35,529 bases of DNA, from positions 1 to 35,529 of the IMG/VR virus record IMGVR_UViG_3300009414_002491; one strand, 5' to 3'. Every line of letters begins with the position of its first letter. The stretch's first letter is position 1. Below, one piece after another: positions 4,428-19,661 of the stretch. Origin of the DNA: a virus. The notes below the pieces were generated by a model. The model was not told the origin of the DNA, made no database searches, and was given only the letters and a program-made list of their open reading frames with translations. A program made the position numbers and the translations under genes.

Positions 4428-4474
4428 CGTCTGTGGCGTGTTGAGACGCAGATAAGCTCGGGCGTCTGTGGCGT
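4428..4474 (+). promoter_or_regulatory. scaffold leader with direct repeat CGTCTGTGGCGT
   Basis: The 12-mer CGTCTGTGGCGT occurs at 4428-4439 and 4463-4474. Between and overlapping them, AGACGC (4444-4449) can pair with GCGTCT (4462-4467). An 11-of-12 copy lies in the loop of the hairpin at 14260-14298, in front of another segment of the operon. Its function is unknown. Confidence 0.45.
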
Positions 4475-4492
4475 ACCGGGAAAGGATAAAGA

Positions 4493-5317
4493 ATGGCAAT
4501 AGCCCCATTTGTAGAGACCCTTGACGGTGTAGAGGAGGCGTTTAAGCCGCTGTATGTAGAGACGGAAGGCGGATTCTTGCTCGATGCAGAAATGGATAAA
4601 CATCCTAGTGTTGTGACTCTAAAGACGGCACTCGATCAGGAACGAGAAAAGCGCAAAAAAGCCAATGAAGCGATAGGAAAGTTCAAGGACGTCGACCTGA
4701 CTAGGTGGGCGGCCTTATCAGCTATGTCTGATGAGGAACTTTCGGCGTTTCATACGTGGCAAGAAAAACAGACGGACGGATCGGACGACGGGAAAGGCGA
4801 CGATAATTTTGAAGAACGGCTGGACCGTGTCACACGAAAGATGCGGGCAGATCACAAGAAGGAACTGGAAGCCCGAGACGGCCGTATTGGAGAACTCGAT
4901 ACGGAAAAAGAACGGCTGAATAGTGATCTTCGGAACTTCAAAGTCAATCAGCGGCTTCTTGCAGTAGCGCAAAAGCAAGGTGCTCAAGACCCTCAAGATT
5001 TTCTTCTCCGTGCAAACGGGGTATGGAAAATGGATGAGGACGGTGAGCCTGCCGCCTATGATGATCTCGGCGATCTGATCCGAGGTCCCGATGGCGTAAA
5101 AAAGATCAGTATGGAAGAATGGATAGATGGGATTGGCGCAGAGGCCAAGTACCTATTCAAATCAAGTGCTGGTGGCGGCGCAGGTGGCAGTGGAAATGGA
5201 GACAGCAAAGGCAATCGGGCACACTCAAAAAAAGAATTGGGCACGCCTGAGAGAAAAGCTGCTTTCATTGGTGAGTATGGGCAAGATGCGTATCTAGATC
5301 TCCCGTCCGGTGAGTAA
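4493..5317 (+). CDS. putative capsid scaffolding protein
   Basis: A 274-residue acidic, charged protein directly before the capsid gene, where siphoviral scaffolds sit. It begins with a short conserved-looking segment (LDGVEEAFKPLYVETEGGFLL) typical of phage scaffold-like proteins. Coiled-coil stretches follow at about residues 41-60 and 104-150 (heptads rich in E, K, R and L), then a Gly/Ser/Asn linker (about 226-240) and a short basic C-terminal segment that may bind the capsid shell. No protease domain is visible. AAAGGA precedes the ATG at 7 nt. The function comes from position and composition rather than a catalytic motif. Confidence 0.78.
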   Translation: MAIAPFVETLDGVEEAFKPLYVETEGGFLLDAEMDKHPSVVTLKTALDQEREKRKKANEAIGKFKDVDLTRWAALSAMSDEELSAFHTWQEKQTDGSDDGKGDDNFEERLDRVTRKMRADHKKELEARDGRIGELDTEKERLNSDLRNFKVNQRLLAVAQKQGAQDPQDFLLRANGVWKMDEDGEPAAYDDLGDLIRGPDGVKKISMEEWIDGIGAEAKYLFKSSAGGGAGGSGNGDSKGNRAHSKKELGTPERKAAFIGEYGQDAYLDLPSGE

Positions 5318-5353: not shown

Positions 5354-6340
5354 GTGGCAATTGGCAAAGCAAGTGATTTTACCATCTATGATGAGGAGTT
5401 CTTTGGCGGTTTTACCGAAATCCAGCAACAGATGTCGGATGCGTTTAATAGCGCAAGCCGAAATGGGCTGCGCCTTCAGCCGTTGCGTCGTAAAGGCGAC
5501 TACGAGAAAGAGAGTTTCATGCAGGAAGTATCGAGTCTAATCACACGACGCGATACGACCAGCGTAGCTACTGCTACGGACTTGGCGATGACCCAAGATG
5601 AGTTTATCGGCGTGAAGATCAATCGAAAAATTGGCCCTGTCTCCCAGACGCTTGACGCGTGGCGGAAGATATCAGAGAACCAACAGACCATGTCGTTTCT
5701 CTTGGGGCAGCAGATTGCGAAAGCCGTTATGGTTGATTATGTCAACATGGCTGTTTCAGCCGGTGTGGCGTCCTTACTCGGGCAAACAGCCTTGACCCAT
5801 GATGCCTCGACTGGGGCAGGGACTGATACCATGTCCCACACATTACTTCTGAGTGCCCTGGCTAAGTTAGGTGATGCAGGTGGCCGAGTTGTAGCTCTAG
5901 TCATGCACTCGAAACCATACTATGACCTCATGAAACAAGCGATTACCGATAACATAGTTGATGTTGCCGGTGTATCAATTAACACCGGTGATATTGCGTC
6001 TTTTGGCAAACCAGTGATCGTGACCGACAGTACGAACCTGGTGGAGACTTCTGGTTCTTCGGAATCAGTCTATCGGACCTTATTGCTTGTAGAGGATGCG
6101 GTTCGTGTCCAAGAGTCGGAAGAACGCGATGTGTTGAGTGAACCTGTCACTGGGCTAGAGAACTTGGCATTTAGAATCCAGGGGGAGTTTGCGTTCAATC
6201 TTCGTGTGCGGGGTTTTAAGTGGGATACCACTAATGGGGGATCGAATCCGACTGACGCAGCTGTTGCAACCTCAACGAACTGGGATCTGTCTGCCTCAGA
6301 TACTCGATCAGGTCCAGGGGCCTTGCTTATAACTGATTAA
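5354..6340 (+). CDS. major capsid protein
   Basis: A 328-residue protein directly after the scaffold gene. The N-terminal half is helical and charged (EIQQQMSDAFNSASRNG, EKESFMQEVSSLITRRD). It is followed by FIGVKINRKIGPVSQTLDAWRKI and then a capsid-like domain with VALVMHSKPYYDLMKQAI, VVDVAG-type turns and a FGKPVIVTDSTNL strand. The arrangement fits HK97-fold capsid proteins of siphoviruses, although the exact subfamily was not identified. The start is GTG 5354 (MAIGKAS), which matches the MAIAASD start and leader of the tail tube gene. The C-terminus is Ser/Thr-rich. A structured leader follows the gene and would allow lower expression of the cassette downstream. Confidence 0.85.
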   Translation: MAIGKASDFTIYDEEFFGGFTEIQQQMSDAFNSASRNGLRLQPLRRKGDYEKESFMQEVSSLITRRDTTSVATATDLAMTQDEFIGVKINRKIGPVSQTLDAWRKISENQQTMSFLLGQQIAKAVMVDYVNMAVSAGVASLLGQTALTHDASTGAGTDTMSHTLLLSALAKLGDAGGRVVALVMHSKPYYDLMKQAITDNIVDVAGVSINTGDIASFGKPVIVTDSTNLVETSGSSESVYRTLLLVEDAVRVQESEERDVLSEPVTGLENLAFRIQGEFAFNLRVRGFKWDTTNGGSNPTDAAVATSTNWDLSASDTRSGPGALLITD

Positions 6341-6368
6341 CCCATGTCCGGGGCAGGCTTTCAAGTCT

Positions 6369-6470
6369 GTCACTTGGTGACTTTCGGCGTCATCACGCCC
6401 CCCCCCTATGAGTCTCACGTTAGGCTCACCGTAAGTTTGGGTGGGATGTGAAGACGCCAAAAGTCTTTTT
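6369..6470 (+). promoter_or_regulatory. structured intergenic region, possible attenuator between capsid gene and glycan cassette
   Basis: GTCAC/GTGAC (6369-6381) and GGCGT/ACGCC (6386-6399) form short hairpins, followed by a run of eight Cs. GGCGTC at 6386-6391 can alternatively pair with GACGCC at 6453-6458. The latter overlaps a terminator-like stem, AAGAC (6451-6455) with GTCTT (6463-6467), followed by Ts. Mutually exclusive pairings of this kind are typical of attenuators, but the terminal stem is only 5 bp. Confidence 0.35.
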
Positions 6471-6505
6471 GTTCTTAGCCAAAAAACGACGTGTAGGGGA
6501 GTTTT

Positions 6506-7651
6506 ATGGCACGAGTTCTGATGTATGCAGGCCACGGCTTTCTGCCGATGGTCGCCTTTCAACGCGGCATTCGCACAGTTAGTACCCTTCCTCTTGTCCT
6601 TCGCGGCGCATCTACGTATGGAGCAAATGACTACGAATCATGCACCGTAGGCATCATGTTCGGCATGAAAGAGCCTCTTAATCGGATGCTCCCCGATCAA
6701 CGTGCACATGATACACACGTTCTTATTATAGATTTAGGATATCTGAAACGCGGAACAGTAGCAGAAGCACGACAAAACCCTGAAGAAGTGTATTGGTCTG
6801 TGAATCTTAATGGGCTAAACGGCTGGGGAGACCCGCCTCCCTCGCCTATGCCTTCTGACCGTTGGAAATCATTGGGTCTTTCTATGGCGAGATGGCAAGA
6901 TCCGACAGAGGGGCATTTCCTCGTGTGTGGCCAGAAACCACATGACGCTGCACTTGGTGGCGTACAGCCTGGTCAGTGGCTTGTCGAGACCGTATCTCGG
7001 CTACGAAGTCTGACAAACAAACAAATTGTTTGGCGGCCCCATCCAGATGACCATTCGAGTCGAAGATTACACATGGCCGCTGAGACAGGAGTGAGGCAGA
7101 GCAAGGGCAACCTACTTGCCGAAGATTTAAAGGGATGTGCGGGTTTGATTGCATATAATTCTAATTCTCTTGTCGAAGCTTTACTTGCTGGCGTGCCAAT
7201 TTATCCTCTTGGTCCAGGGTCAGTTTGCCCGACGATGGGCCATGCTGCTCTGACAGTAGAGACAATAAAGAATCCTCTCAGGCCGGAACGAAATCAGTTT
7301 TTTTACGACCTTGCATACCGTCAGTGGAATATCCCGGAATTAGAAGCCGGTTTGGCATGGTCTCATTTCTTTGATTCTAGTGGTATACTCAAATCTTCGG
7401 ATGCTTCGAGGACAGGTGGGGGTTTGATGTCCTCCTCCCCATCTCCGCGCCGGGGGGCAGCTCGACGCACGTCGAAGCAACCGTTCCCTGCTGTTTCCGC
7501 TCCATCACAGCAGGGTCTTTCTCCTGCTGCGCCACCATTCCTGCAGCAGGAGAACCTATCCCCTCCTGCTGCCACCCTTCAGCAGGAGGGGGATTTCCTT
7601 GACCCTGAAAATCTAGCGTCGTTAATCCATCCGGGAGAAGAGAAAAAGTAG
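6506..7651 (+). CDS. putative GT-B-fold glycosyltransferase (capsule/Kdo-transferase-like) with low-complexity tail
   Basis: A 381-residue protein. Residues 1-300 form the shared domain of a four-member family in this window: an N-terminal half with IIDLGYLKRG (about 74-83) and SVNLNG, a WRPHP motif (176-180), YNSNSLVEALLAGVP (217-231) and a C-terminal FFYDLAYRQWN...AGLAW (275-295). R-x-H/K-P followed by SN-x2-VEAL-x2-GVP resembles the nucleotide-sugar half of GT-B enzymes and capsule-synthesis proteins of the KpsC/KpsS type; the donor is unknown. Residues about 301-381 are Ser/Pro/Gln/Ala-rich, probably disordered, and encoded by three consecutive strong hairpins. GGGGAG precedes the ATG at 5 nt. 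This is the first gene of the cassette. Confidence 0.7.
   Translation: MARVLMYAGHGFLPMVAFQRGIRTVSTLPLVLRGASTYGANDYESCTVGIMFGMKEPLNRMLPDQRAHDTHVLIIDLGYLKRGTVAEARQNPEEVYWSVNLNGLNGWGDPPPSPMPSDRWKSLGLSMARWQDPTEGHFLVCGQKPHDAALGGVQPGQWLVETVSRLRSLTNKQIVWRPHPDDHSSRRLHMAAETGVRQSKGNLLAEDLKGCAGLIAYNSNSLVEALLAGVPIYPLGPGSVCPTMGHAALTVETIKNPLRPERNQFFYDLAYRQWNIPELEAGLAWSHFFDSSGILKSSDASRTGGGLMSSSPSPRRGAARRTSKQPFPAVSAPSQQGLSPAAPPFLQQENLSPPAATLQQEGDFLDPENLASLIHPGEEKK
7486..7591. repeat. three tandem CTGCTG/CAGCAG hairpins inside the 3' end of the GT gene
   Basis: Three inverted repeats lie end to end: CCCTGCTG (7486-7493) with CAGCAGGG (7508-7515); a perfect 12-bp stem at 7519-7530 with 7543-7554; and a perfect 12-bp stem at 7560-7571 with 7580-7591. 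All share the CTGCTG/CAGCAG core but differ outside it, so they are not simple copies. They are in frame and encode the low-complexity tail of the first glycosyltransferase, just before the next start codon. Confidence 0.8.
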
Positions 7652-7652
7652 C

Positions 7653-7892
7653 ATGCTCGGTGATTATATGGACGGCCGCTGGTGGCCGCATATTATGTAC
7701 TGGCTAGACTGGAACATCTCTACATATCGTGTGAGTTGGTTCGTGTGCGTGTTTGTGATGTATCTTCGTGCTTACTCCCCCTATTCTCAAGATTTCCCTT
7801 TTGATGTGACGGGCCTTGTCTTTGTTTTCTTTACGGGAACATGTCTCTGGATTGCTTACTGTGCCTTTTGGTATGGCTGGGGGGTAGGCTGA
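7653..7892 (+). CDS. small membrane protein (79 aa)
   Basis: A hydrophobic, aromatic-rich protein with two likely membrane segments, about residues 24-40 and 52-75 (the latter ending AYCAFWYGWGVG). It follows the preceding stop by one base, and its own stop overlaps the next start (TGATG). It is too short for a GtrA-type flippase. A role as membrane anchor or partner for the neighbouring transferases is inference; it was not recognised. Confidence 0.6.
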   Translation: MLGDYMDGRWWPHIMYWLDWNISTYRVSWFVCVFVMYLRAYSPYSQDFPFDVTGLVFVFFTGTCLWIAYCAFWYGWGVG

Positions 7893-8725
7893 TGCCTCAA
7901 GCCCTCGTGTACGAGACCTCCCGTAATCTTCCCAAGACTCGGCGTATCATGTCTGCTGTTGCGGCAGGATTAGAGCGTCGTCACTATGCTATTGAAATAC
8001 GGGATAGCTGGGAGTATCCCCAAGGAGATGAGACAGAAGCCGACCTTATAGCTATCTGGGGGGATTTCCACGGGACCGAGCGAATATTTGCAGACCGTCA
8101 TGCTTTTAAGCGGCTCTTGCATATCGACAACGGATATATTCAGCGGGGTCACTTCAAAGGGTATTATAGTGTCACCTACAATGCCAAACAGGCGCATCGC
8201 GTCCTCTGGGAATTGCCTTGCCCTTCGGGAGATCGTTGGCGGGCGCTAGGGGAGTCGATACACCGGTGGCGGAAAAGTGGCAGTAAGATCCTCGCCCTTG
8301 GGCTGTCTCGTAAGCAATGTGGAAACTTAGGATTCGAGTATCCCAGCGTGAATCGCGAATTGCAGAGGGCGTTGCATACTGCGACAAATATGCCTGTGGC
8401 CATGCGCGAGAAACGGTATGACCAGAAAGATGAACCCCTGCGGGATGTGTTACGCAAAGGATCGTGGCACAGTGTGGCGGGTTACCATACTAAAGGGCTA
8501 ATCGAAGCGCTCCTTGAAGGGCGTCCTATCTTAGCGTTACATCCTTGCGCTGCGCAGTCTATGGGAAATGAATCCTTGGAGGAAGTTCTCACGCCCTGTT
8601 ATCCAGACAACCGCGAGGAGTTCTTCATCCGCCTGGCCTATCACCAATGGACTTTAGAAGAGATTCGACAAAGCCATCCGTGGAGAAAAGATAGCCCGTT
8701 GCGGATTATTGGGAGGATTACCTGA
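7892..8725 (+). CDS. putative GT-B-like glycosyltransferase, paralogue 2
   Basis: A 277-residue paralogue of the 6506 product. Shared landmarks are LHIDNGYIQRGHFKGYY (about 76-92), PSGDRWRALGESIHRW (about 111-126), GYHTKGLIEALLEGRPI (197-213) and FFIRLAYHQWTLEEI (244-258). The R-x-H/K-P motif of the other copies is replaced by AMREKRYD, so the active site may differ or be degraded. ATG 7892 was chosen over upstream frame extension because it overlaps the preceding stop and follows GGGGGT. The 3' end overlaps the next gene by one base. Confidence 0.65.
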   Translation: MPQALVYETSRNLPKTRRIMSAVAAGLERRHYAIEIRDSWEYPQGDETEADLIAIWGDFHGTERIFADRHAFKRLLHIDNGYIQRGHFKGYYSVTYNAKQAHRVLWELPCPSGDRWRALGESIHRWRKSGSKILALGLSRKQCGNLGFEYPSVNRELQRALHTATNMPVAMREKRYDQKDEPLRDVLRKGSWHSVAGYHTKGLIEALLEGRPILALHPCAAQSMGNESLEEVLTPCYPDNREEFFIRLAYHQWTLEEIRQSHPWRKDSPLRIIGRIT

Positions 8726-9594
8726 TGCGTCACATTGCCCTGTACTATGATGCTTCCAGTTCTCGTGGGCGGTCTGTTATCAATACCCTTATGGCGGGTA
8801 TTGCGCAGGCAGACCTGGGTGATAAAGTCGCCATCTATACTGAACAGGAATACAAAAAAGGCATACACGGCGACATCGTGTGTTGGTATGGTCTCTCGGG
8901 AAAGTTGATGGACTTGGCCCATCTTCTCTGGGAAAGCAAGACCCCTAACGTTTTTTTTGACCTCCCGTATTGGGGCAGGAAGCACGAACCCCACCCTCAG
9001 CATCATCGCTTTGCTTTAAATGCCCATCAGCCTACTAAGTATTTTCAGCAAGGACGTGAACCAGAACGGTTTCTGGCGTTTAATCGGCCTATAAAACCGT
9101 GGCGAGAAACAAGTCAAGCTGGCGCGGTCTTGGTTGCTGGCATGAGTGACAAGCAAACGCAAGCCTGGGGATTGGGGCCGAGCTGGGAGTTTCATGTCGA
9201 GCTGATCGAAAAGTTTAAAAGGCAATGGGGCGACTGGGTGGGCAAAGATCCTCCCCCTATTGCCTGGCGACCTAAGCCTGCTTGCAGGGTAAGCAGACGC
9301 CCTATCCCAGGCACGCGCTACGCTGATGGGTTATTATCGGAGGAATTGCAGAGATCCCTTTTGGTTTATACATACCGGAGTAACACAGCCATAGACGGGT
9401 TGATTGAAGGAGTCCCCTGTGAAGTGGTAGGGAGCGACCACCCTGCGTATGTTTTGAGTTGCAAGGACCCGATTTCTCAAGACGTTCGTCTCCAGTTCTG
9501 TGCCGATCTAGCATACTGCCAAACGTCCATGCAAGAACTTCGGAACGGACGAGCGTGGAAGTTTATCAGCAATCAATTGGGAGAGCTTCCATGA
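8725..9594 (+). CDS. putative GT-B-like glycosyltransferase, paralogue 3
   Basis: A 289-residue protein. The C-terminal half keeps the family pattern: AVLVAGMSDKQTQAWGLG (134-151), AWRPKP (180-185), TYRSNTAIDGLIEGVP (216-231) and LAYCQTSMQELRNGRAW (262-278). The N-terminal half is the most diverged of the four (FFDLPYWGRK in place of IDxGY). It starts one base inside the previous stop, with GGAGG 8 nt upstream. A separate acceptor specificity from its paralogues is plausible but not shown. Confidence 0.65.
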   Translation: MRHIALYYDASSSRGRSVINTLMAGIAQADLGDKVAIYTEQEYKKGIHGDIVCWYGLSGKLMDLAHLLWESKTPNVFFDLPYWGRKHEPHPQHHRFALNAHQPTKYFQQGREPERFLAFNRPIKPWRETSQAGAVLVAGMSDKQTQAWGLGPSWEFHVELIEKFKRQWGDWVGKDPPPIAWRPKPACRVSRRPIPGTRYADGLLSEELQRSLLVYTYRSNTAIDGLIEGVPCEVVGSDHPAYVLSCKDPISQDVRLQFCADLAYCQTSMQELRNGRAWKFISNQLGELP

Positions 9595-9818
9595 TGGGCA
9601 ACGTTTGTATGGACTGTAGATACTCAGTTATTTTTACGAGTAATGAGCTTTATTGTAATTTATATGGGAACATGAAAACGGAAGACTATTTCGCTATAGA
9701 GGGGATAGAACAGAAATCAACTCCACTTTGTGGAAGAGAGGCGAAGGGGGGTATTCGTGCGGGATTTCTCCAGCGAGCGGCACGGCGAGTTCATTATTCA
9801 AGGGGATCAGGAGACTAG
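9591..9818 (+). CDS. small cysteine-rich phage protein (75 aa)
   Basis: Begins MMGNVCMDCRYSV and has C6-x2-C9, C22 and C47 (PLCGREA). This is the spacing of a common family of small phage proteins with two paired cysteine sites, probably binding zinc. The start can be ATG 9591 or 9594; both overlap the previous stop. The last 30 residues are basic and less ordered, and the stop lies just before the next start at 9820. Function unknown. Confidence 0.55.
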   Translation: MMGNVCMDCRYSVIFTSNELYCNLYGNMKTEDYFAIEGIEQKSTPLCGREAKGGIRAGFLQRAARRVHYSRGSGD

Positions 9819-9819
9819 C

Positions 9820-10686
9820 ATGCACGTCACCTTCTTTGCCGTGGAGAAAGACCGAGAAGACAAGCTGGCCGCCTCATTCTGTGAGGGGGTAAAGCGTAGC
9901 CGTACAGACACCTGTGAGGTCGTTCGTCCGGCTTCCTACCCTGCCCCGAATCCACGTACTGATGTGGCGGTCATGATTGGCGTTAAAGGGTATTCCCGTC
10001 GCCTCCTTGACAATCATCTTGAAGCAGGAAAACACACGGTCTATATCGATAAAGGGTATCTTGGCGGGCGGAGTGCCTATTTTAGGATGAGCGTAAACAG
10101 CTTCCAGCCGCTTGCCTACTTCCAGAAAACTCCACGGCCTGATGATCGGCTACGTGCACTGTCTGTGAACATGCTCCCGATGCGAACGCAAGGGAGCCAC
10201 ATTATTATTGCAGGAGGGTCACTTAAGTATGCCAAATGGCATGGGCTGCATACCGGGCAAAGTGTGGACCCGATGACCGAATGGGCACGGAAGTCCCTGA
10301 AGCGGGTTGGTAAGTACACAAATCGTCCCCTTATTTATAGACCGAAGCCGTCATGGAAAGAGGCGGTGTCCCTTTCTGGAGCACGGTTTTCGCGGCCGCC
10401 TGAACTGCTTGCTCACCTTCTCCCCGATGCTTGGGCACTGGTGACCTTTGGCAGCAATGCTGCCGTTGAGGCGCTTACTGCTGGGGTTCCTGTTATCGTC
10501 ACTGGGGATGGGATAGCGAGACCACTGGCTCGTACACAAGAGGAGAATATAGACGACCTTTTTATCCCCTCTGACGCAGTGCGCCGACAGTGGCTGGCAG
10601 ATATGGCGTATTGTCAGTTTAATGTCCAAGAAATGGAATCAGGACTGGCCTGGAAGATCCTGAGGGAACAAATTGCATGCCGCTGA
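9820..10686 (+). CDS. putative GT-B-like glycosyltransferase, paralogue 4
   Basis: A 288-residue paralogue of the 6506 product: YIDKGYLGGRSAYFRMSVN (75-93), a DDRLRALSVN segment, SHIIIAGGSLKYAKWHGLH, YRPKP (173-177), FGSNAAVEALTAGVPV (210-225) and MAYCQFNVQEMESGLAW (262-278). It has the best preserved SN-x2-VEAL-x2-GVPV motif. ATG 9820 was chosen because AGGAG lies 6 nt upstream; the open frame reaches back into the previous gene, where its residues match nothing in the paralogues. Its end overlaps the next start by 10 nt. Confidence 0.7.
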   Translation: MHVTFFAVEKDREDKLAASFCEGVKRSRTDTCEVVRPASYPAPNPRTDVAVMIGVKGYSRRLLDNHLEAGKHTVYIDKGYLGGRSAYFRMSVNSFQPLAYFQKTPRPDDRLRALSVNMLPMRTQGSHIIIAGGSLKYAKWHGLHTGQSVDPMTEWARKSLKRVGKYTNRPLIYRPKPSWKEAVSLSGARFSRPPELLAHLLPDAWALVTFGSNAAVEALTAGVPVIVTGDGIARPLARTQEENIDDLFIPSDAVRRQWLADMAYCQFNVQEMESGLAWKILREQIACR

Positions 10687-11258
10687 GTGACGAGGGCATC
10701 CGGCTTCAGAAGCAGTATCAGAAGATGCATCGAGAGAGGCATTTTCAAGGGATCGGCTGTTTTAACTATTACTGGGAGATACGGGATTTGGTGAAAGAGA
10801 CACACGCCCTTTCTCTGCTGGACTACGGGTGTGGGAAAGGGCGGCAGTTCAACACTGAGTCTAAGGTATTGCACGGCAAGCTTGGTGTTTATATCGACTC
10901 GTGGCAGGAAGGGCTCGGAGTGGGGGTATTAACGGGATATGACCCTGCCTGCGGTGAATGGGCAAAACGACCCGAAGGTTCTTTTGATGGCGTTTACTGC
11001 TGCAGCGTTCTGGAGCATTTATATGAACACGATGCACCGTTTGTGTTGCGTGACATTTTCCAGTATGCCCAGAAGTTTGTTTTCATTGCTGTGGGGACAA
11101 CTCCAGCCCAAAAGAATCTCCCTGATGGACGAAACGCCCATATTACCGTGCAGCCGATCAGTTGGTGGGAAGATATGACCAGATCTATTGCAACGGAATA
11201 TCCAGGTATTATATGGATGATTAGCGAAGAACGGGAAAAAGATGTCGTCGTGGGATAA
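10677..11258 (+). CDS. class I SAM-dependent methyltransferase, copy 1
   Basis: A 193-residue protein with the Rossmann-fold SAM signature LLDYGCGKG (47-55), an acidic-loop equivalent TGYDPA (86-91) and FDGVYCCSVLEHL (103-115), the post-II/IV motif. The target is unknown; its neighbours suggest a sugar or glycan. A paralogue at 14319-14858 shares the DYGCGKG, TGYDPA and VLEHL motifs, and in both places an FkbM-type gene follows with a short overlap. Confidence 0.8.
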   Translation: MPLSDEGIRLQKQYQKMHRERHFQGIGCFNYYWEIRDLVKETHALSLLDYGCGKGRQFNTESKVLHGKLGVYIDSWQEGLGVGVLTGYDPACGEWAKRPEGSFDGVYCCSVLEHLYEHDAPFVLRDIFQYAQKFVFIAVGTTPAQKNLPDGRNAHITVQPISWWEDMTRSIATEYPGIIWMISEEREKDVVVG

Positions 11259-11838
11259 AGTAGAGCGGGCTCTGCAAAACTCAGTTGATATCGTGGTCGC
11301 TGCTTTGCTACAAGGACGGGGGCGGCGGGCTATTGATGGCGGGGCCTATAAGGGATTCTTCGCCCGCTTACTCCCTCCCTTTTTCCAGCATGTCGAGATG
11401 TTTGAGCCAAACGGTTTTGTTCATCCAGCGCTCACTGCAAACACGTATGTATATGACTGCATGACGTTACACCCCGAAGGACTGAGCAATAAAGCAGGCT
11501 ATGCCAGACTAGGCAATCCTGATGCGAGCAATCGAGATTTCTTCTATCTTCGAGAAGACACAGGGCCTGTTTCCTTAGTGCCACTCGATGAGTTTGCTTT
11601 TAGGGATGTGGATCTCATAAAGCTGAATATTGAAGGAATGGAATTGGCGGCTCTTCATGGGAGCCGTCAGACTATTGCTCGATGTCGGCCACTGATCCTT
11701 GTAGAAGAGAAAGGGCATGGTGAGCGGTTTGGGGTGTCCGCAGGCTCTATTGCGGCTTTCTTAGCCCCCTTTGGGTATCTCCGCACGACTCGTTCAAAAG
11801 GAATGTGGCTGTATGCCACGAAGAAAAAGGGGGCGTGA
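11242..11838 (+). CDS. FkbM-family methyltransferase, copy 1
   Basis: A 198-residue protein with AIDGGAYKGFFAR (30-42), FEPN (54-57), VSLVPLDEF (110-118), the hallmark DLIKLNIEGMELAALHG (124-140) and CRPLILVEE (148-156). FkbM-type enzymes O-methylate sugars or small molecules with SAM. The protein is a little shorter than the family average and lacks an N-terminal extension. It overlaps the preceding methyltransferase by 17 nt and the following small gene by one. Confidence 0.85.
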   Translation: MSSWDKVERALQNSVDIVVAALLQGRGRRAIDGGAYKGFFARLLPPFFQHVEMFEPNGFVHPALTANTYVYDCMTLHPEGLSNKAGYARLGNPDASNRDFFYLREDTGPVSLVPLDEFAFRDVDLIKLNIEGMELAALHGSRQTIARCRPLILVEEKGHGERFGVSAGSIAAFLAPFGYLRTTRSKGMWLYATKKKGA

Positions 11839-12053
11839 TGCCTGCTAGTGGACGAAAACCGGATGAACAAGAAAAAGTCATTTGTCCCAATAGCCGGATA
11901 GGAAAGGAGTACGCTCCCCATCGCGTTTGGGTAGATTCTAAAGGGCGGCTTGTCGGAGAAATTGCTAAGCACGTTCACCCGAGACAAAAACGAGAAGATT
12001 GCGCTTATTCTGGTCATGTTGTGCCGGTTAAGCGGACAGATAAGAAAGAATAG
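11838..12053 (+). CDS. hypothetical small basic protein (71 aa)
   Basis: Starts MPASGRKPDEQEKV at ATG 11838, overlapping the previous stop (TGATG). It is rich in Lys, Arg and His, with VWVDSKGRLVGEIAKHVHP in the middle and two cysteines. It was not recognised. The overlap with both the operon and its reading direction supports it as a real gene; otherwise only composition supports it. Confidence 0.5.
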   Translation: MPASGRKPDEQEKVICPNSRIGKEYAPHRVWVDSKGRLVGEIAKHVHPRQKREDCAYSGHVVPVKRTDKKE

Positions 12054-12055
12054 CT

Positions 12056-12655
12056 ATGCTGAATTGGGACGTATTACGGGTAACAGATACCATTTTTCAG
12101 CCTTTTCCTCACGTCTTAGCGGAGAATGTCTTTCAGGAAGAAGACTATCAGCTTCTTCTTCAGACAATCCCCCCATCCGAGGTCTACGATGCCAAAATCA
12201 AGAATGAGCGGGGCAAGGCACATCGTCTAGATTGTCCTCTCGGGTCCTTAGACTCCGACATTTGGCGGGCATTGGATGCTGAATTGAGGAGCGACGACTT
12301 GTGGCACTGGGTACGGAAAAGGTTTGAGCGGCTAGACTTGCCTGACTACGGCATGATTGACATTCGTCTCTTTCAAGATTTGCCTGGCTACTACCTAGCT
12401 CCGCATACGGATGCTAAGAGCAAGATCGTAACGCTTATCTTTTACCTCGCGCAGAATCGCCAACACGCTGCTTGGGGAACTCGTCTTTATACCGCAGCGG
12501 AGGATACTCTGCCCAACACACAGCTTGTATCCTACCGCCCAAATACGATGCTTGGCTTTGTCCGATCTGCTACGAGCTGGCATGGGTGTCGCCCTATTAG
12601 CGGGACACGTAACACTCTACAAGTGATTTATCGTTCTGCCACGACGGGGAAATGA
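12056..12655 (+). CDS. putative 2-oxoglutarate/Fe(II)-dependent oxygenase
   Basis: A 199-residue protein with the facial-triad pattern of this superfamily: H117-x-D119 (YYLAPHTDAKSK), a strand VTLIFYLAQN, distal H176 (TSWHGCRPI) and R185 (GTRNTLQVIY), which would bind 2-oxoglutarate. The N-terminal PFPHVLAENVFQEEDY is typical of prolyl-hydroxylase-like members. Such enzymes hydroxylate or epimerise proteins, sugars or lipids; the substrate here is unknown. It sits between a small gene and the sulfotransferase with gaps of 1-2 nt. Confidence 0.8.
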   Translation: MLNWDVLRVTDTIFQPFPHVLAENVFQEEDYQLLLQTIPPSEVYDAKIKNERGKAHRLDCPLGSLDSDIWRALDAELRSDDLWHWVRKRFERLDLPDYGMIDIRLFQDLPGYYLAPHTDAKSKIVTLIFYLAQNRQHAAWGTRLYTAAEDTLPNTQLVSYRPNTMLGFVRSATSWHGCRPISGTRNTLQVIYRSATTGK

Positions 12656-12656
12656 T

Positions 12657-13316
12657 ATGGGTGTAATCTGCAATGGCTTGCAAAAGAGCGGTGTTCGTCT
12701 CCTACAGCGCGCTGTGGAGTTGATGGGCTGGACGCCTGCCCCTGATAAGTTCAGCCGAACGGTGACGAAAAGGGAATGGAGGCACGAGCCGTATGGCCCT
12801 GGATTCTGTACCCTTGGCGAGCACGAAGTTGCCTATACGCATATCCCCTATCCTGCCGATATCGGCAAGCATCAGTTTATCGGCATCATTCGCGATCCCC
12901 GAAATGTATTGATTTCGGCATATCGCTGGCAATACCGTCACAATCCTTTAACTGCAACAGAAGCACGGACATCTTTAGAGCACATGATGACGCCACGCTT
13001 TTTTATGCGAGCCTCTCAGTTTGTGGATTGGCCAAGACATCGTCTCGTCTTTCGTTTTGAAGATATGGTTGGGCCAAGCAGAGAAATACATGTTCAGGTT
13101 CTAGCCGACATTTTAGAGGTTGAGATAGACGCAGAAACAATCGCGGCGCAGATGATTGGGGGGACACGAACGTATCAGCCTCAACATAGCCGTTGGCAAG
13201 ACATCTGGACACCTGACCTTGATAAGCGATGGAAAGAAAGAGGCGGGGAGGATCTTGTTAAAGCGTATGGATACACCCAGGAGGGAGAAGAAGGCGGTGT
13301 CGAATGGAAAAGATAA
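12657..13316 (+). CDS. putative PAPS-dependent sulfotransferase
   Basis: A 219-residue protein. Residues 7-16 (GLQKSGVRLL) match the 5'-phosphosulfate-binding loop. FIGIIRDPRNVLISAYRW (74-91) matches the 3'-phosphate-binding motif, with the expected Arg and Ser. FRFEDMVGPSREI matches the following FED segment, and the C-terminal RWQDIWTPDLDKRW is where the KxGxxGxW-like loop lies in other members. It would transfer sulfate from PAPS to an acceptor, here plausibly a glycan. It is shorter than most cellular members. The start is ATG 12657, one base after the preceding stop. Confidence 0.82.
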   Translation: MGVICNGLQKSGVRLLQRAVELMGWTPAPDKFSRTVTKREWRHEPYGPGFCTLGEHEVAYTHIPYPADIGKHQFIGIIRDPRNVLISAYRWQYRHNPLTATEARTSLEHMMTPRFFMRASQFVDWPRHRLVFRFEDMVGPSREIHVQVLADILEVEIDAETIAAQMIGGTRTYQPQHSRWQDIWTPDLDKRWKERGGEDLVKAYGYTQEGEEGGVEWKR

Positions 13317-13552
13317 CACATATCTCAGTTGACAAGGAATCGCCCTATTATAGCAAAGAAAGTGACATTATTGCCGTCTACTTCAATGGAATTTTGCTTG
13401 ATAACTACTGTGAGGCAGACAGTGATGAGGGCTGGGTTGAGGTTTATGACCAGGACTTGAAAGGCAATCTGATTATGGAGAATGCGACTACGCCGCGTAT
13501 TATTCGCGTCTCTGGGAGAGTTCGGCTAGAAAAGAAAAAGCAGGCGGCATGA
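13304..13552 (+). CDS. hypothetical small phage protein (82 aa)
   Basis: Starts MEKITHISVDKESPYYS, with a beta-rich acidic middle (IAVYFNGILLDNYCEADSD) and a basic tail. Small proteins of this look accompany many phage structural regions, but no function is recognised. It overlaps the sulfotransferase by 13 nt and the next gene by 4 nt (ATGA). Confidence 0.6.
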   Translation: MEKITHISVDKESPYYSKESDIIAVYFNGILLDNYCEADSDEGWVEVYDQDLKGNLIMENATTPRIIRVSGRVRLEKKKQAA

Positions 13553-14217
13553 CGGAGTCGATTCGCATTTTTATTGGGTATGACGGCGGCGAGGGGCTCG
13601 CTAGCCTTATTTGTCAGAAGTCTATTTGGCGTCGAACAGACCACCCCTTGCAAATCTTTCTCCTAGATCAACGCATACTTCGTTCCCTCGGTTTGTATAT
13701 CCGGGACCGAGATCCTCGTGCCTCGACGGAGTTTACGTACACTCGTTTTCTGGTCCCCGCCTTGTGTGGCTACCAGGGCTGGGCACTCTTTGTTGATGCT
13801 GACTTCCTCTTCCAGGCTGACATTTCTGAACTCTGGGCACTGCGCGATTCAAGGTATGCCGTGCAGGTTGTCAAACATAATTACCAGCCAGAGGAGACAA
13901 CAAAGATGGGGGGCATTCCTCAGGCACAGTATCCTCGGAAGAATTGGAGTAGCCTCATCCTGTGGAACTGTGGGCATGAAGCAAGCCGAACGTTAGCCCT
14001 TCACACGATAAACTCCCAGTCCGGGGCATATCTCCATCGATTTCAATGGGTGTTGGATCAACATATTGGCTCTTTACCGGCTGCTTGGAACCATCTTGAA
14101 CCCCAGGGTGTGACTGACCAATTGCCCAAGGCTATTCATTATACAATGGGCATTCCTGGCATCCATCGAGGATCATTTAATTTCACCTCGGAGTGGGAGG
14201 ACGAAGTCCGAGCGTGA
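13549..14217 (+). CDS. putative GT8-like GT-A glycosyltransferase
   Basis: A 222-residue protein beginning with a nucleotide-binding strand (IRIFIGYDGGEG). It has the metal-binding FVDADFLF (D83-x-D85), then KNWSSLILWNC (131-141) and HYTMGIPG (197-204), the order seen in family 8 enzymes and related phage glycosyltransferases. It would transfer a hexose from a nucleotide sugar with Mn2+. It starts at an ATGA overlap. It is the last gene before the two tandem hairpins at 14226-14298. Confidence 0.78.
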   Translation: MTESIRIFIGYDGGEGLASLICQKSIWRRTDHPLQIFLLDQRILRSLGLYIRDRDPRASTEFTYTRFLVPALCGYQGWALFVDADFLFQADISELWALRDSRYAVQVVKHNYQPEETTKMGGIPQAQYPRKNWSSLILWNCGHEASRTLALHTINSQSGAYLHRFQWVLDQHIGSLPAAWNHLEPQGVTDQLPKAIHYTMGIPGIHRGSFNFTSEWEDEVRA

Positions 14218-14225
14218 ATCACCGC

Positions 14226-14298
14226 CTTCTGCTGATTTTCCTACACCACAGCAGAAGCTGAGGTCAGATGCTGCGTCTGTGGCGGAGCGTCTGACCTC
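14226..14298 (+). promoter_or_regulatory. two tandem hairpins in a cassette spacer
   Basis: CTTCTGCTG (14226-14234) pairs exactly with CAGCAGAAG (14249-14257). Then GAGGTCAGA (14260-14268) pairs with TCTGACCTC (14290-14298), extending inward by a G·U and two G-C pairs to a 12-bp stem. The second loop carries CGTCTGTGGCG, also found twice in the scaffold leader. No T tract follows, so neither is a standard intrinsic terminator. The next gene (14319) lacks a visible Shine-Dalgarno sequence. Confidence 0.65.
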
Positions 14299-14318
14299 TT
14301 AGCTAACATATAAGCAAC

Positions 14319-14858
14319 ATGAAATACTCTAGAGAACATCCAAGCCCTCAATGTCAGGCGCTTATTGCCAAGTATACGGAGTGGCATCGGCATGGCCAAA
14401 TCAAGCAATGGAAAGGGCGCGGGTTACCTTGTGCGCGTCAGATGCGCGAGGAAGTGCCTCCTGATGCAGCGTATACGGTTTTAGACTATGGCTGTGGGAA
14501 GGGGGAGTATATTCGAGACCAGACGTGGGATGTTCCTGGTGTTGCTTTAGTCACAGGATACGATCCTGCGGTTTCTGTCTGGGCTACGCCTCCTCAAGGG
14601 ACGTTTGACTATGTTGTGACAAAAGACGTTCTTGAACATTTGACGCCAGAGGATATAGACTGGGTATTAGAAGAAATGTTTTCCTTAGCGCAGCGGAAGG
14701 TTTGGGTTATTGTGGGTACATATGCGAGAGGAAAACCTTTCCCCGACGGTAGCGGGAACAGTAATACGCTTGTGTGGAAGCCTAACAAATGGGCGGAGAT
14801 ATTGAAGAGCTACGAGAACAGATTTGGAGTGCCTTGTTATGCCAGAATCAAAACCTGA
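14319..14858 (+). CDS. class I SAM-dependent methyltransferase, copy 2
   Basis: A 179-residue protein with VLDYGCGKGEYIRD (54-67), TGYDPAVSVW (79-88) and FDYVVTKDVLEHL (96-108). It is a paralogue of the 10677 product, with the same motif order and the following PDG motif (PFPDGSGN vs NLPDGRNA). The substrate is unknown. No clear ribosome binding site precedes ATG 14319; the hairpins upstream may matter for its translation. Its 3' end overlaps the FkbM gene by 20 nt. Confidence 0.78.
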   Translation: MKYSREHPSPQCQALIAKYTEWHRHGQIKQWKGRGLPCARQMREEVPPDAAYTVLDYGCGKGEYIRDQTWDVPGVALVTGYDPAVSVWATPPQGTFDYVVTKDVLEHLTPEDIDWVLEEMFSLAQRKVWVIVGTYARGKPFPDGSGNSNTLVWKPNKWAEILKSYENRFGVPCYARIKT

Positions 14859-15558
14859 TTTTTCCATGGGCCTGGAAATAGACGCAAAAACAGGGGATCT
14901 GGTTCAGGTCAACAATATCTGGCTTCCTGCATCCGACACGCATTTCAGGGAGACGGTTGAAAAGACCGGGAATTATCTTATTGAACGCCTATGGGCGGGG
15001 ATGAGCTACTGCCCGACGAAGCATGTGGCGATAGACATTGGTGCGCATGTTGGGTTGTGGACACGAGTCATGATAGAACAGTTTACTGAGGTGTACGCTT
15101 TTGAACCTGATCCGACTAACTATGCATGTTTGGTTAAGAACGTAGCAGCCGTGCCAGGAACGGTGCATCTTCACAATGTGGCAGTAGGCAGGTCCCATGG
15201 AAGAGGACGGATGTTGGCGGACCCGCTGCCCAAGCGGCAAGGGAATACTGGCGCACGTTTCATGCAATCTGGCCTAAACGGGCCAGTCCTTGTCGCTACC
15301 TTAGATGAATTGAATTTATCCCACTGTGACTTCATCAAGATTGATGTTGAGGGAGCCGAGCTGGATGTTCTCATAGGGGCTTATGCTACGATTCTGCGGT
15401 GTCGGCCTGTTATTATGCTTGAAGTAGGAAAGACCCCTCCTGAGCGTTTTGGGCATACAGCTGAAGAGCCTATGAGATACCTGGAAAAGATGGGCATGAA
15501 ATTGGAACTGGAGATGCGGGCAGATAAGGTGTTCATGTGGACGATACCAACACTGTAA
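14839..15558 (+). CDS. FkbM-family methyltransferase, copy 2
   Basis: A 239-residue protein with VAIDIGAHVGLWTR (63-76), YAFEPDPTNYACL (86-98), LVATLDELNL (151-160), the hallmark FIKIDVEGAELDVLIGA (165-181) and CRPVIMLEVG (188-197). This is a more canonical, longer FkbM than copy 1. ATG 14839 was chosen because GGAG lies 9 nt upstream; an in-frame TTG at 14824 is less likely. It is probably a sugar O-methyltransferase. It overlaps its two neighbours by about 20 nt on each side. Confidence 0.88.
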   Translation: MPESKPDFSMGLEIDAKTGDLVQVNNIWLPASDTHFRETVEKTGNYLIERLWAGMSYCPTKHVAIDIGAHVGLWTRVMIEQFTEVYAFEPDPTNYACLVKNVAAVPGTVHLHNVAVGRSHGRGRMLADPLPKRQGNTGARFMQSGLNGPVLVATLDELNLSHCDFIKIDVEGAELDVLIGAYATILRCRPVIMLEVGKTPPERFGHTAEEPMRYLEKMGMKLELEMRADKVFMWTIPTL

Positions 15559-16367
15559 CTCTTGTTACGACATTCAATCATACGCTCTGGGAGCGGTATG
15601 CTCGGCTGTGTTTACGTTCGTGGGCAAGCCATCTTCCTGAATCCATCGATGTTTGGGTCTATGATGAAAGTGGAGTTGGGCAGAGCAATGGGCAACAGGG
15701 AAAGTGGCCTGCTCACTGGGAGTGGCAAGACCCGTTTGAATATGCTGCCTACCGAGAGTTTATGAATGACCATACTACGCAGAATATTCAGGATTATCGG
15801 CGGGATGTTCGACGGTTTGCTCACAAAGTCTTTGCGCTAGGACATGCGTCCCTTCACTGCCGGTCCGAGTATCTGATATGGCTGGATGCAGACGTGTTCA
15901 TTTTTGAAGACATACCCGCAGACTTTTTCCCTTCACTTTTTAACGGACATTTTCTTTTTTACTTGAGTCGCCATGCCTATACTCACTCCGAGTGTGGCTG
16001 TTGGGGGATGGATACGCGTCTTGCTACACGACCTTTTTTTCCTCTTGCTTTGGAAGCACTCTATCGTTCTGGGTCAGTTCTAGATTTACCTGAACAGCAC
16101 GACAGTTTTGTTTTTGACTGGCTCCGTAAGCGTCAAGAAAGTGCGGGATTGATTACGAGTCACGATTTGACACCGCATGTTCCTAAGGGGCATGCTTGGC
16201 TAGCAAGTCCTCTAGCCTCGTACATGGACCACTGGAAAGGGGATCGTTGGAAGACTTTTAAGAGTTGGCAAGAAGATGTGTCAGGCATGACTGGACGGGG
16301 AATTAAGTTGAACCTGACTCATCCTTACTGGCGAAATCTCCCGAGTCGAGTAGGAGCACGAAAATGA
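15537..16367 (+). CDS. putative GT-A-fold glycosyltransferase
   Basis: A 276-residue protein starting at GTG 15537 (AAGGT upstream). The N-terminal VTLVTTFNHTLWERYARLCLRSW is typical of GT-A enzymes. YRRDVRRFAHKVFALGHA (87-104) precedes the DxD motif IWLDADVFIFED (D117-x-D119), followed by FLFYLSR and ECGCWGMD. The C-terminal half has DHWKGDRW and a glycine-rich GMTGRGIKL. Similar proteins occur in phages and in surface-polysaccharide loci. It is the last gene of the cassette. Confidence 0.75.
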   Translation: MDDTNTVTLVTTFNHTLWERYARLCLRSWASHLPESIDVWVYDESGVGQSNGQQGKWPAHWEWQDPFEYAAYREFMNDHTTQNIQDYRRDVRRFAHKVFALGHASLHCRSEYLIWLDADVFIFEDIPADFFPSLFNGHFLFYLSRHAYTHSECGCWGMDTRLATRPFFPLALEALYRSGSVLDLPEQHDSFVFDWLRKRQESAGLITSHDLTPHVPKGHAWLASPLASYMDHWKGDRWKTFKSWQEDVSGMTGRGIKLNLTHPYWRNLPSRVGARK

Positions 16368-16451: not shown

Positions 16452-16961
16452 ATGGCGCTTACACTTGATGCGACGGTTGGTGGGACAGATAGCAACACAT
16501 ACTGCACGCTTGCCGAGGCAGACACCTATCACGACAGTCGCCTAGATAACACGAATTGGACAGCGGCCACGGACGATAACAAGAACCGCGCTCTTGTGAC
16601 AGCTACGCGACTACTGGATGAATGGACGCGCTGGAAGGGGTCCTCTAATACAAGCACTCAATCCCTTTTATGGCCTCGGATAGACGTGTTGGATCGTCAG
16701 GGATTAGAATTTTCCGCTTTAATAATTCCTGCGTTCCTCAAGGACGCAGAAGCAGAGTTTGCATTCTGGCTGCTCGGGTCCGATCGCACAGCCGACTCCG
16801 ACACTAGGGGTTTCTCCTCCCTCAGTGCCGGAGCGGTGAGTGCGAACATTGATAAGTTTGATCGCCCGCACGTCGTCCCAGATAGCGTCAGTTCCATGCT
16901 TAGCTTTTATGGGGAGGTTCGCTCAATGCGTCCAAGCATGGCGCGTCTGGTGCGCGCCTAA
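16452..16961 (+). CDS. head-tail connector/adaptor protein (Ad1-type)
   Basis: A 169-residue protein beginning ALTLDATVGGTDSNTYCTLAEADTYHDSRL, the pattern of a phage head-tail adaptor family that databases sometimes label as DnaT-like. It continues with NRALVTATRLLDEW and WKGS, a mostly helical fold. It would attach below the portal in the connector. Gene order (adaptor, closure, gp10-like, terminator, tail tube) supports this rather than a DNA-binding role. It resumes the structural gene order interrupted by the glycan cassette. Confidence 0.75.
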   Translation: MALTLDATVGGTDSNTYCTLAEADTYHDSRLDNTNWTAATDDNKNRALVTATRLLDEWTRWKGSSNTSTQSLLWPRIDVLDRQGLEFSALIIPAFLKDAEAEFAFWLLGSDRTADSDTRGFSSLSAGAVSANIDKFDRPHVVPDSVSSMLSFYGEVRSMRPSMARLVRA

Positions 16962-16973
16962 AGAAGATAAGCC

Positions 16974-17591
16974 ATGGGACTCCAGGACACCTTTAAGAAT
17001 GTGGCGAAAGCGGCAGCTAACGCCCTGGGGGACGTGGTAGAGGTGGTGACCTATCGAAAAATCACCGCAACGGCGTATGCTCCGGCTACCTCAGCCACTC
17101 CTACAGAAACAGCAACAATCATTGCCGATATTGATGCCGTATGGTCTGATATCCGTAGTCAGCGTGTGGATGGGCAGGGTGTGAATATTCGACAGCGACA
17201 GGTGGTACTCTTTGGAAAGGACTTAGGAACGACTATTCCCACTGAAGATGGAGAAATCCACCGTGTTTCTGGGGATTTGTTTGATCATACCGGGGCAGGG
17301 ACAGCAGATGACTTTTCGTTTGAAGCCGATCCATACAACGCTATTCGAGGCGCGAGCCTAGGGAGTATTGCTGTAGGGCAGTGGATACATACAGCCTTTG
17401 CCGCAGAAAGCGGTAACACCGGAATCGCGAAGGTTACGGGTATCAACACAGATCTCATCGTTGTCGATAAATCTCTTACAGCAGAAGATTCCTCGGTAGC
17501 GCGGATTAGGGATGTAGAGATTTGGCGGATTATAGGGCCTGTAGTAGCCGATCCAGCAGGGGCCACGTATACCTGCCTAGTGAGACAATAA
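16974..17591 (+). CDS. head closure-type protein with an inserted beta-rich module
   Basis: A 205-residue protein. Residues 1-104 fit a head closure (stopper) protein: VVEVVTYRKITATAY, a segment on internal residues DIDAVWSDIRSQRVDG, then RQRQVVLFGKDLG and IPTEDGEIHRVSGD. Residues 105-180 (TGAGTADDFSFEADPYNAIRG, VGQWIH, TGINTDLIVV, E-x2-S-x-A-x-I) match a module in the tail tube protein (its residues 99-174). The C-terminus (WRIIGPVVADPAGATYTCLVRQ) returns to the closure-protein pattern. The insertion makes it longer than usual. The stop overlaps the next start (TAATG). Confidence 0.68.
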   Translation: MGLQDTFKNVAKAAANALGDVVEVVTYRKITATAYAPATSATPTETATIIADIDAVWSDIRSQRVDGQGVNIRQRQVVLFGKDLGTTIPTEDGEIHRVSGDLFDHTGAGTADDFSFEADPYNAIRGASLGSIAVGQWIHTAFAAESGNTGIAKVTGINTDLIVVDKSLTAEDSSVARIRDVEIWRIIGPVVADPAGATYTCLVRQ

Positions 17592-18494: not shown

Positions 18495-19661
18495 ATGGCA
18501 ATTGCTGCGTCAGATCGTATGAAAGTGCGGCGCAAAACCACAGCCGAGGCATCGTGGGGGGAGACACCATCCACTCCGGCAATGACCGAATTCAATGCAA
18601 CCTCGGCGAATTTTAATTCGGGAAAAACAACCGCTAAATCTGCTATTATTCGTTCAGACAGACAAGTCACAGACATCATCCAAACGGGGTTCAGCGCTAC
18701 GGGTGATTTTGGATTTGAGCTGATTTACGGCGAACTCGAATGGGCAATGGAAAGCCTTTTCGGGAACACCTTTAGTGCTGCTCTTACCTATACAGGGGCA
18801 GGTAGCACCGATAATTTCTCTTTTGAGGCTGATCCCTATAATACGATCCGTGGTCCTAGCCTGGAGAACTTTGTTGTCGGTCAGTGGATTGAAATCTCCG
18901 GGGCCTCTGTTGCTGCAAACAACGGACGCTGGCGTATTTCAGGTGTTAATACCAACACCATTGTCGTCAATGGTCCGCTCTCTACAGAAGCTGATTCGAC
19001 AGCGACCATCAAAGGCGATGGGCACTTAGAGCTAGGCACGTCAGAAATCAGCTATCTCTTAGAACAAGAGTTCAATGACATTACTCGGTTCAAGTACGAA
19101 ACGGGTGCGCGCATGTCGCAGCTGTCCATGAACTTCACCTCACGCGCCATCATCACCGGTACGTTTAACTGGATGGCAAAGGACCTGACTCAGCAGGCGA
19201 CCACGATTGGAGACGGAGCCAGCACGGTTGCGTCTACAAACAATGTCATGAACGCCTCGACAGATGTGGGTGCGATCATGAAAGACTACGTCACTCTATC
19301 TACGGCTATCCGATCTATTGCCTTCACGGTAAACGGCAGTCTTCGTGCACCGGACAAAATCGGCAGTACGACCGTTGCTGAAATCAATGACGGGACATTT
19401 GTTGTAGACGGCACCCTAGAGGCGTATTTCGAGGATGCCACTCTGTATGCAGATGCTCTGGCTCATACGACGGTGGCCCTGTCCTGGGAAGTCTCAGATG
19501 ATGATGGCAACCGCTACGTATTTACCCTCCCCGCTGTGAAACTGACAGGCGATCCTAATGCCGGCGGTCAGAACCAGGACGTGATGGTCTCACTCGCTTT
19601 TGAAGGGTACCGCGACCCCGCTTCGGGGACAACTATCCAGGTCGATAAGTTTGCGGCCTAG
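18495..19661 (+). CDS. major tail tube protein with inserted beta-rich module
   Basis: A 388-residue protein before the tail assembly chaperone and tape measure. It has a small N-terminal domain (EASWGETPSTPAMTEFNAT, IRSDRQVTDIIQTG), which is typical of siphoviral tube proteins. Residues 99-174 carry the module TGAGSTDNFSFEADPYNTIRG...VGQWIEISGASVAANNGRWRISGVNTNTIVV. Then come the tube-like FNDITRFKYETGARMSQLSM, FNWMAKDLT and a C-terminal tube half ending ALSWEVSDDDGNRYVFTLP and GYRDPASGTTIQV. The inserted domain probably projects from the tube surface (inference). The gene shares its leader with the capsid gene. Confidence 0.85.
   Translation: MAIAASDRMKVRRKTTAEASWGETPSTPAMTEFNATSANFNSGKTTAKSAIIRSDRQVTDIIQTGFSATGDFGFELIYGELEWAMESLFGNTFSAALTYTGAGSTDNFSFEADPYNTIRGPSLENFVVGQWIEISGASVAANNGRWRISGVNTNTIVVNGPLSTEADSTATIKGDGHLELGTSEISYLLEQEFNDITRFKYETGARMSQLSMNFTSRAIITGTFNWMAKDLTQQATTIGDGASTVASTNNVMNASTDVGAIMKDYVTLSTAIRSIAFTVNGSLRAPDKIGSTTVAEINDGTFVVDGTLEAYFEDATLYADALAHTTVALSWEVSDDDGNRYVFTLPAVKLTGDPNAGGQNQDVMVSLAFEGYRDPASGTTIQVDKFAA

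Follow-up and report, generated by a model that had tools for sequence, protein, structure and literature searches.

A phage cassette between capsid and connector genes encodes glycosyltransferases of the Kdo-transferase fold and may serve virion decoration

Why would a phage keep ten kilobases of glycan-building and glycan-decorating genes inside its virion operon? The window analyzed here, i.e. the whole stretch of DNA under study, is a linear virus record of 35,529 bp (IMG/VR record IMGVR_UViG_3300009414_002491; an incomplete genome) with the gene order kdsA (cut by the edge), two genes of unknown function, MuF-type head protein, scaffold, major capsid protein (MCP), cassette, head-tail adaptor Ad1, Hc1, tail genes, tape measure and S74-chaperone fibre. 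A first-pass annotation had described a co-oriented cassette at 6506-16367 between capsid and connector genes, and that description holds for the open reading frames (ORFs), the strand and the boundaries: the genes lie tightly packed on one strand between MCP (5354-6340, plus strand; PF20036, E=2e-89; phrog_247) and Ad1 (16452-16961, plus strand; phrog_477, 1.2e-25), which ends the slot. Absent from that annotation is the clue that four of the six glycosyltransferases (GTs) have the fold of transferases for 3-deoxy-D-manno-octulosonic acid (Kdo) and that genes for Kdo-8-phosphate lie upstream. Virion glycosylation by phages is already known; new here is that GTa, GTb, GTc and GTd form one family with the Kdo-transferase fold. 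We favor, with middling confidence, a role in virion decoration: the cassette would be expressed late, and GTa would attach Kdo, or another ulosonic acid related to it, to a virion protein.

GTa (6506-7651), which adjoins the MCP gene and carries a long Pro/Ala/Ser-rich C-terminal tail, GTb (7892-8725), GTc (8725-9594) and GTd (9820-10686) are encoded on the plus strand and are paralogs of a single family, GTb and GTd being called from internal ATG starts. Pfam and PHROGs gave nothing significant for GTa-GTc and only a sub-threshold match to DUF6716 for GTd, and NCBIfam likewise; the four are assigned as GTs through family and fold. A structure model was made of GTd only (AlphaFold, pLDDT 86.8), and GTa is placed in the fold by its membership in the same sequence family. 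When the GTd model was compared with solved structures, the first 13 Foldseek rows were KrkA and KpsC, and the top 15 PDB entries in VIA-align were all KpsC, WbbB or KrkA (Z 11.3-14.3), in alignments spanning about 230-249 residues; UDP-GlcNAc 2-epimerase-type enzymes formed the next group after these Kdo transferases (Z 9.8). A profile of the GTa-GTd family searched against PDB sequences listed KpsC entries first and WbbB next, at weak E values (0.011-0.24) with some spurious matches mixed in, and it aligned the QXXXD, KXHP and base residue of KpsC/WbbB without gaps at those positions.

Retaining Kdo transferases are defined by a QXXXD motif, with a nucleophilic Asp and a Gln that binds the Kdo carboxylate, and by a (K/R)XHP motif for cytidine monophosphate (CMP) (PMC12887879, PMC10148158). 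In GTa, QKPHD is aligned to QTFND of KpsC, the CMP motif reads RPHP, and the position of the general base Glu66 of KpsC, which is conserved as acidic in the family (Glu in L017 and others), is occupied by Asp. With the two motifs intact and an acidic residue at the base position, GTa is a predicted retaining Kdo-type transferase. QXXXD is lost in GTb, GTc and GTd, where the CMP motif is RPKP (GTc, GTd) or absent (GTb); these are divergent paralogs that, lacking the nucleophile, would need another donor or mechanism. Pseudaminic acid is the sugar transferred by KpsS1 (GT118), an enzyme related to this group (PMC12887879), so that another ulosonic acid is possible as the donor of GTa. Motif states were scored across 118 distinct ORFs of the GT family, some of them partial; wider family members were collected by a degenerate motif scan, and a family-wide alignment was too divergent. 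When bacterial genomes were scanned with a pattern, only 6 of the 41 matches contained the GT family, and no MCP-adjacent prophage copy was found.

A GTa-type gene also lies directly 3' of the MCP gene in eight other contigs (L017, L026, L028, L030/L032, L031, L058, L101 and L108), of which L101 and L108 came from the motif scan and the remainder from the set with related MCPs. It is the sole gene between MCP and Ad1 (phrog_477) in L026 and L028; elsewhere the content of the slot varies from a GT plus a methyltransferase-like gene (L108) to at least 13 genes in this window, and the slot is empty in relatives such as L018-L020. On the MCP tree the slot label changes five times, two of the changes being forced by supported branches, and the slot has therefore been repeatedly filled or emptied. 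QXXXD is kept in all nine MCP-adjacent copies versus 15 of 102 elsewhere (Fisher p=2.6e-7, an optimistic value because copies within one genome are not independent). A C-terminal extension of 39-93 aa, mostly Pro/Ala-rich, is present in six of seven intact MCP-adjacent copies, versus a median of 6 aa elsewhere (p=8.5e-5), and some of these tails terminate in short basic GRP/RGR motifs. A further contig (L128/L197) has a similar cassette between an unrelated MCP (phrog_283) and Ad1, made up of genes for GTe, GDP-mannose dehydratase, a methyltransferase, a canonical GT, FkbM, a sulfotransferase-like protein and GT8, and other genes fill the slot in still other phages (L044, L048).

Two observations on individual copies may be added. 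The MCP-adjacent GT of L030, L031 and L032 is broken into two frames, by decay or sequencing error. In L117 (953-2421) a canonical QXXXD GT stands close to the tail terminator and beside a sialyltransferase-like gene (phrog_4603), which is another CMP-sugar enzyme among connector genes.

The left edge of the window cuts a gene for 3-deoxy-8-phosphooctulonate (Kdo-8-P) synthase, kdsA (1-708, plus strand), scoring 332 bits with TIGR01362 versus the curated cutoff of 314. A longer contig of the same phage (L015, L196) extends upstream and contains TerS, TerL, a KdsD-like SIS gene, portal and the complete kdsA; in L015 the SIS gene occupies 2167-2913 and kdsA 4438-5217. The KdsD-like protein has 248 aa, with SIS as the only domain found, and its best match is NF008141 KdsD (1.4e-45), below the curated cutoff for NF008141/TIGR00393, so the protein is said only to work like KdsD, a role suggested by sequence. 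A search for kpsF/kdsD in 12 contigs with the GT found it in this phage only. In deposited phage records kdsA is rare (14 matches in 50,697, several of them in unannotated records). In one contig (L195), the immediate neighbors of GT, GTe, FkbM and GT8 genes are kdsA and a kdsB-like gene. In a single-cell contig of Prochlorococcus sp. AG-402-K22 (L182), kdsA, kdsB, kdsC and kdsD lie within about 7 kb of GTd-type and GT8 genes; this set may belong to a host surface island or to a cyanophage, either being possible.

From the gene content and order, the fold family, the motif state of GTa, the kdsA and kdsD-like genes of the same phage and the recurrence of the slot, we infer a scheme covering expression time, donor, acceptor, order of action and benefit. 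GTa would act in the host cytoplasm with CMP-Kdo or a related CMP-ulosonic acid as donor, and its acceptor would be an abundant virion protein, most likely the MCP encoded just upstream, on which the long tail may help it to dock. GTb-GTd, GT8 and GTe could add other sugars to lengthen the chain; the methyltransferases, the oxygenase and possibly the sulfotransferase-like protein (ST) could cap or modify the glycan. The phage would boost the supply of Kdo through KdsA and the KdsD-like isomerase and rely on the host for the final two steps (KdsC, KdsB), and it may benefit from a masked or altered virion surface chemistry. A virion protein as acceptor is the simplest explanation because the motif-intact GT keeps to the MCP slot, with a tail there.

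Several points weigh against this scheme. The nucleophile is missing in three of the four family members (GTb-GTd). The Ser/Thr content of the MCP C-terminus does not tell GT-bearing from GT-free phages, and this enrichment, considered as an acceptor signal, was dropped as not discriminating. Co-location with MCP could reflect linkage or expression timing. Records with kdsA above the cutoff are only modestly enriched, at 5 of 50 GT-family records versus none of 48 comparison records (p=0.03), falling to 4 of 49 versus none of 48 (p=0.06) without this phage. The control set has fewer bases; it combines relatives by MCP in which no MCP-adjacent GT was detected, other pattern matches and four short records that do bear a GT. 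Some kdsA carriers moreover have related neighborhoods (the same in G010 and G027, similar in G007) and thus amount to about one lineage; the linkage of kdsA to GT genes is more telling than the enrichment. Finally, kdsA and kdsD fit work on the host lipopolysaccharide (LPS) or capsule equally well, because Kdo is a hallmark sugar of LPS.

This last point leads to the strongest alternative, namely that the enzymes act late on LPS core or capsule intermediates at the cytoplasmic face, changing the receptor against superinfection or against re-adsorption of progeny to debris. The nearest solved folds would suit such a role, as KpsC and WbbB build capsule linker and O-antigen, and so would Kdo itself as an LPS sugar, the small hydrophobic protein inside the cassette and the position of related modules in other phages, away from the capsid; this is how an ocean virus encoding KdsA and further LPS genes has been interpreted (PMC5332604). 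Against it, the GT with an intact nucleophile keeps company with the MCP slot in divergent phages, the cassette has no recognised flippase, polymerase, ligase or lipid-initiating transferase, and a place in the late structural operon would leave little time for surface turnover. We regard modification of the host surface as rather unlikely. The first-pass annotation had offered decoration of capsid or tail and modification of the host surface as its two options. Of these, virion decoration is the better supported because the MCP slot recurs, a similar cassette lies behind an unrelated MCP and none of those four envelope functions was recognised; the acceptor is still a deduction, and the Kdo precursor genes would serve the host surface too.

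A virion glycan carried by the tail tube, tail tip or fibre instead of the capsid seems improbable. Related GT, GT8 and methyltransferase genes come after the tail-fibre genes in Caulobacter phage CcrSC, and other canonical GT copies adjoin tail terminator or head-closure genes, but the canonical GT abuts MCP in this phage and the eight other contigs, and the fibre gene of the window (31616-32866) is 15 kb away. Hypermodification of phage DNA, with the GTs glycosylating modified bases, is very improbable: DNA glycosylation is a known activity of phage GTs (cited in PMC12619734) and the basic GRP/RGR ends of some MCP-adjacent GTs would fit, yet the oxygenase matches PF13640 with no TET/JBP-type match, the nearest fold is that of a CMP-Kdo-using transferase, and no base hydroxymethylase is seen in the available part of the incomplete genome.

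The other cassette genes, all on the plus strand, agree with a modified glycan to differing degrees, and the earlier tally of six GTs, four methyltransferases, one 2-oxoglutarate (2OG) oxygenase and one sulfotransferase stands as a list of candidates. Annotation from sequence is firm for FkbM1 (FkbM-type methyltransferase, 11242-11838; PF05050, 5.8e-13), FkbM2 (FkbM-type methyltransferase, 14824-15558; PF05050, 5.9e-20; TIGR01444, 7e-28), the GT8-family glycosyltransferase (13549-14217; PF01501, 8.1e-7, above cutoff; phrog_28018, 1e-48; no match in PDB) and the S-adenosylmethionine (SAM) methyltransferase MT2 (14319-14858; PF13489, 5.7e-8, above cutoff). MT1 (SAM methyltransferase, 10677-11258; phrog_24759, 9e-19) is under the curated Pfam cutoffs (PF13489, 4e-4), yet it is a paralog of MT2 (7e-24). 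The 2OG-Fe(II) oxygenase-like protein (12056-12655; PF13640, 1.3e-5), at 26.5 bits half a bit under the cutoff of 27, retains HxD...H aligned with the solved hydroxylase 9blq (4.6e-4). GTe (15537-16367), recurrent in phage cassettes, is a candidate GT-A-type glycosyltransferase with a DxD invariant in the alignment of 10 relatives; Pfam gave no significant match and a PDB profile search spurious matches only. The annotation of ST (12657-13316) is weak, with a PF00685 match at E=0.014 and, picked by eye as candidate 5'-phosphosulfate-binding (5'-PSB) and 3'-phosphate-binding (3'-PB) motifs, the stretches GLQKSGVRLLQ, which resembles the loop that binds the sulfate donor PAPS, and RDPRNVLISAY. 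Its AlphaFold model, made with one relative, was uninformative (pLDDT 31.6), hence no claim is made on its fold, and a search of IMG/VR found no relatives beyond the same phage. FkbM-type methyltransferases often act on sugar oxygens. Of the methylated, possibly sulfated glycan foreseen in the first-pass annotation, methylation is thus reasonable given two FkbM-type enzymes, and sulfation hangs on a single weak gene. PADLOC found no match to a defence system.

Three small ORFs in the cassette had not been listed before, one for a 79-aa hydrophobic protein (7653-7892, plus strand) translationally coupled to GTb and two of 71-82 aa. Among the 14 junctions from GTa to GTe, 12 overlap or have gaps of at most 2 bp, one gap is 101 bp, and one, of 225 bp, contains a possible small ORF. 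GC content is even over the whole cassette. Contigs from other samples repeat the cassette in the same order at about 99.9-100% identity, and it is therefore not an assembly chimera; no substitutions were counted in the cassette genes among the four copies checked. The 165-bp spacer between MCP and the cassette (6341-6505, plus strand) is predicted to form a stable RNA (minimum free energy -61.2 kcal/mol, z=-3.43, with none of 200 shuffles as stable), ending in a stem of 12-13 bp (GACUUU-c-GGCGUC ... GACGCC-a-AAAGUC) followed by UUUUU. This possible attenuator may let less transcription run on into the cassette from MCP, a protein needed in abundance. Promoter-like sites in the region were at chance level (14 found versus 15.6 expected), and terminator-like sites, which are short consensus matches, numbered 23 versus 15 in shuffles (sd 4).

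Elsewhere in the window, long degenerate arrays of a 5-bp GACAC-type repeat, with higher-order units of 15, 20, 25 and 148 bp, lie just downstream of kdsA (795-915) and just upstream of the MuF-type gene (2436-2826), and the differences from contigs of other samples are mainly at these arrays. Hc1 (16974-17591) and the major tail-tube-type protein (18495-19661) have in common a domain of ~160 residues (37.7% identity) with a near-identical FSFEADPYN.IRG stretch, as if it had been copied from head-closure to tail proteins or the reverse. Tandem repeats of 36 bp close to the window's right end (34622-35078) partly overlap a minus-strand ORF with a repeated RERVTGCKKT.

We tentatively put forward a wider proposal, and hold it somewhat doubtful: several tailed-phage lineages may have, in a fixed MCP slot, a Kdo transferase dedicated to the capsid and equipped with a tail for docking, this phage supplying the Kdo precursor as well, and a coat of Gram-negative envelope sugar may camouflage their particles or control their surface charge. 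Should GTa-type enzymes modify capsids, virion glycosylation would reach several phage lineages beyond a few mycobacteriophages, and the capsid sugar would be a bacterial envelope sugar instead of a common hexose. A QXXXD/RXHP GT directly 3' of MCP would then be a sequence signature predicting sugar-coated heads, and at least some kdsA genes of environmental viruses, so far interpreted as host-LPS genes, would gain another reading. A literature search, with most subscription papers outside its reach, turned up no phage Kdo-type transferase described as working on virions.

In mycobacteriophages Che8 (gp110), Corndog (gp38) and Myrna, phage GTs glycosylate capsid and tail-tube proteins (cited in PMC12363180 and PMC11256854). 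The likeness lies in the phage-encoded GTs and is compared by description only, the present system being known from genes alone. The GTs of Maravista, a related cluster F1 phage, lie near the 3' end of the genome (PMC11256854), whereas here they are in the virion operon, and the consulted passages of the two sources report no Kdo genes, FkbM/2OG/ST set or MCP-Ad1 slot for these phages. The giant viruses CroV and Fadolivirus resemble this phage in having Kdo-synthesis genes, as Kdo pathways are predicted among their glycogenes together with sugar methyltransferases; they differ as viruses of eukaryotes, and the consulted passages of that source (PMC9614988) describe no MCP-adjacent Kdo-type GT. 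Relatives are also found in Caulobacter phage CcrSC (gp170-gp173) and podovirus ct7QV12, where GTa/GTd homologs, mostly annotated as hypothetical, occur with GT8 or methyltransferase genes beside virion genes; the neighbors, however, are tail-fibre or terminase genes, outside the MCP-Ad1 slot. The retaining beta-Kdo transferases KpsC (GT107), WbbB (GT99) and KrkA (GT140) have their overall fold in common with the GTd model, and GTa has their QXXXD and RXHP, with an acidic residue, Asp, at the Glu66 position of KpsC. In contrast to them, GTb-GTd are without nucleophile and HP, identity in structural alignment is about 10-13%, and the phage proteins are single-module enzymes encoded within a virion operon.

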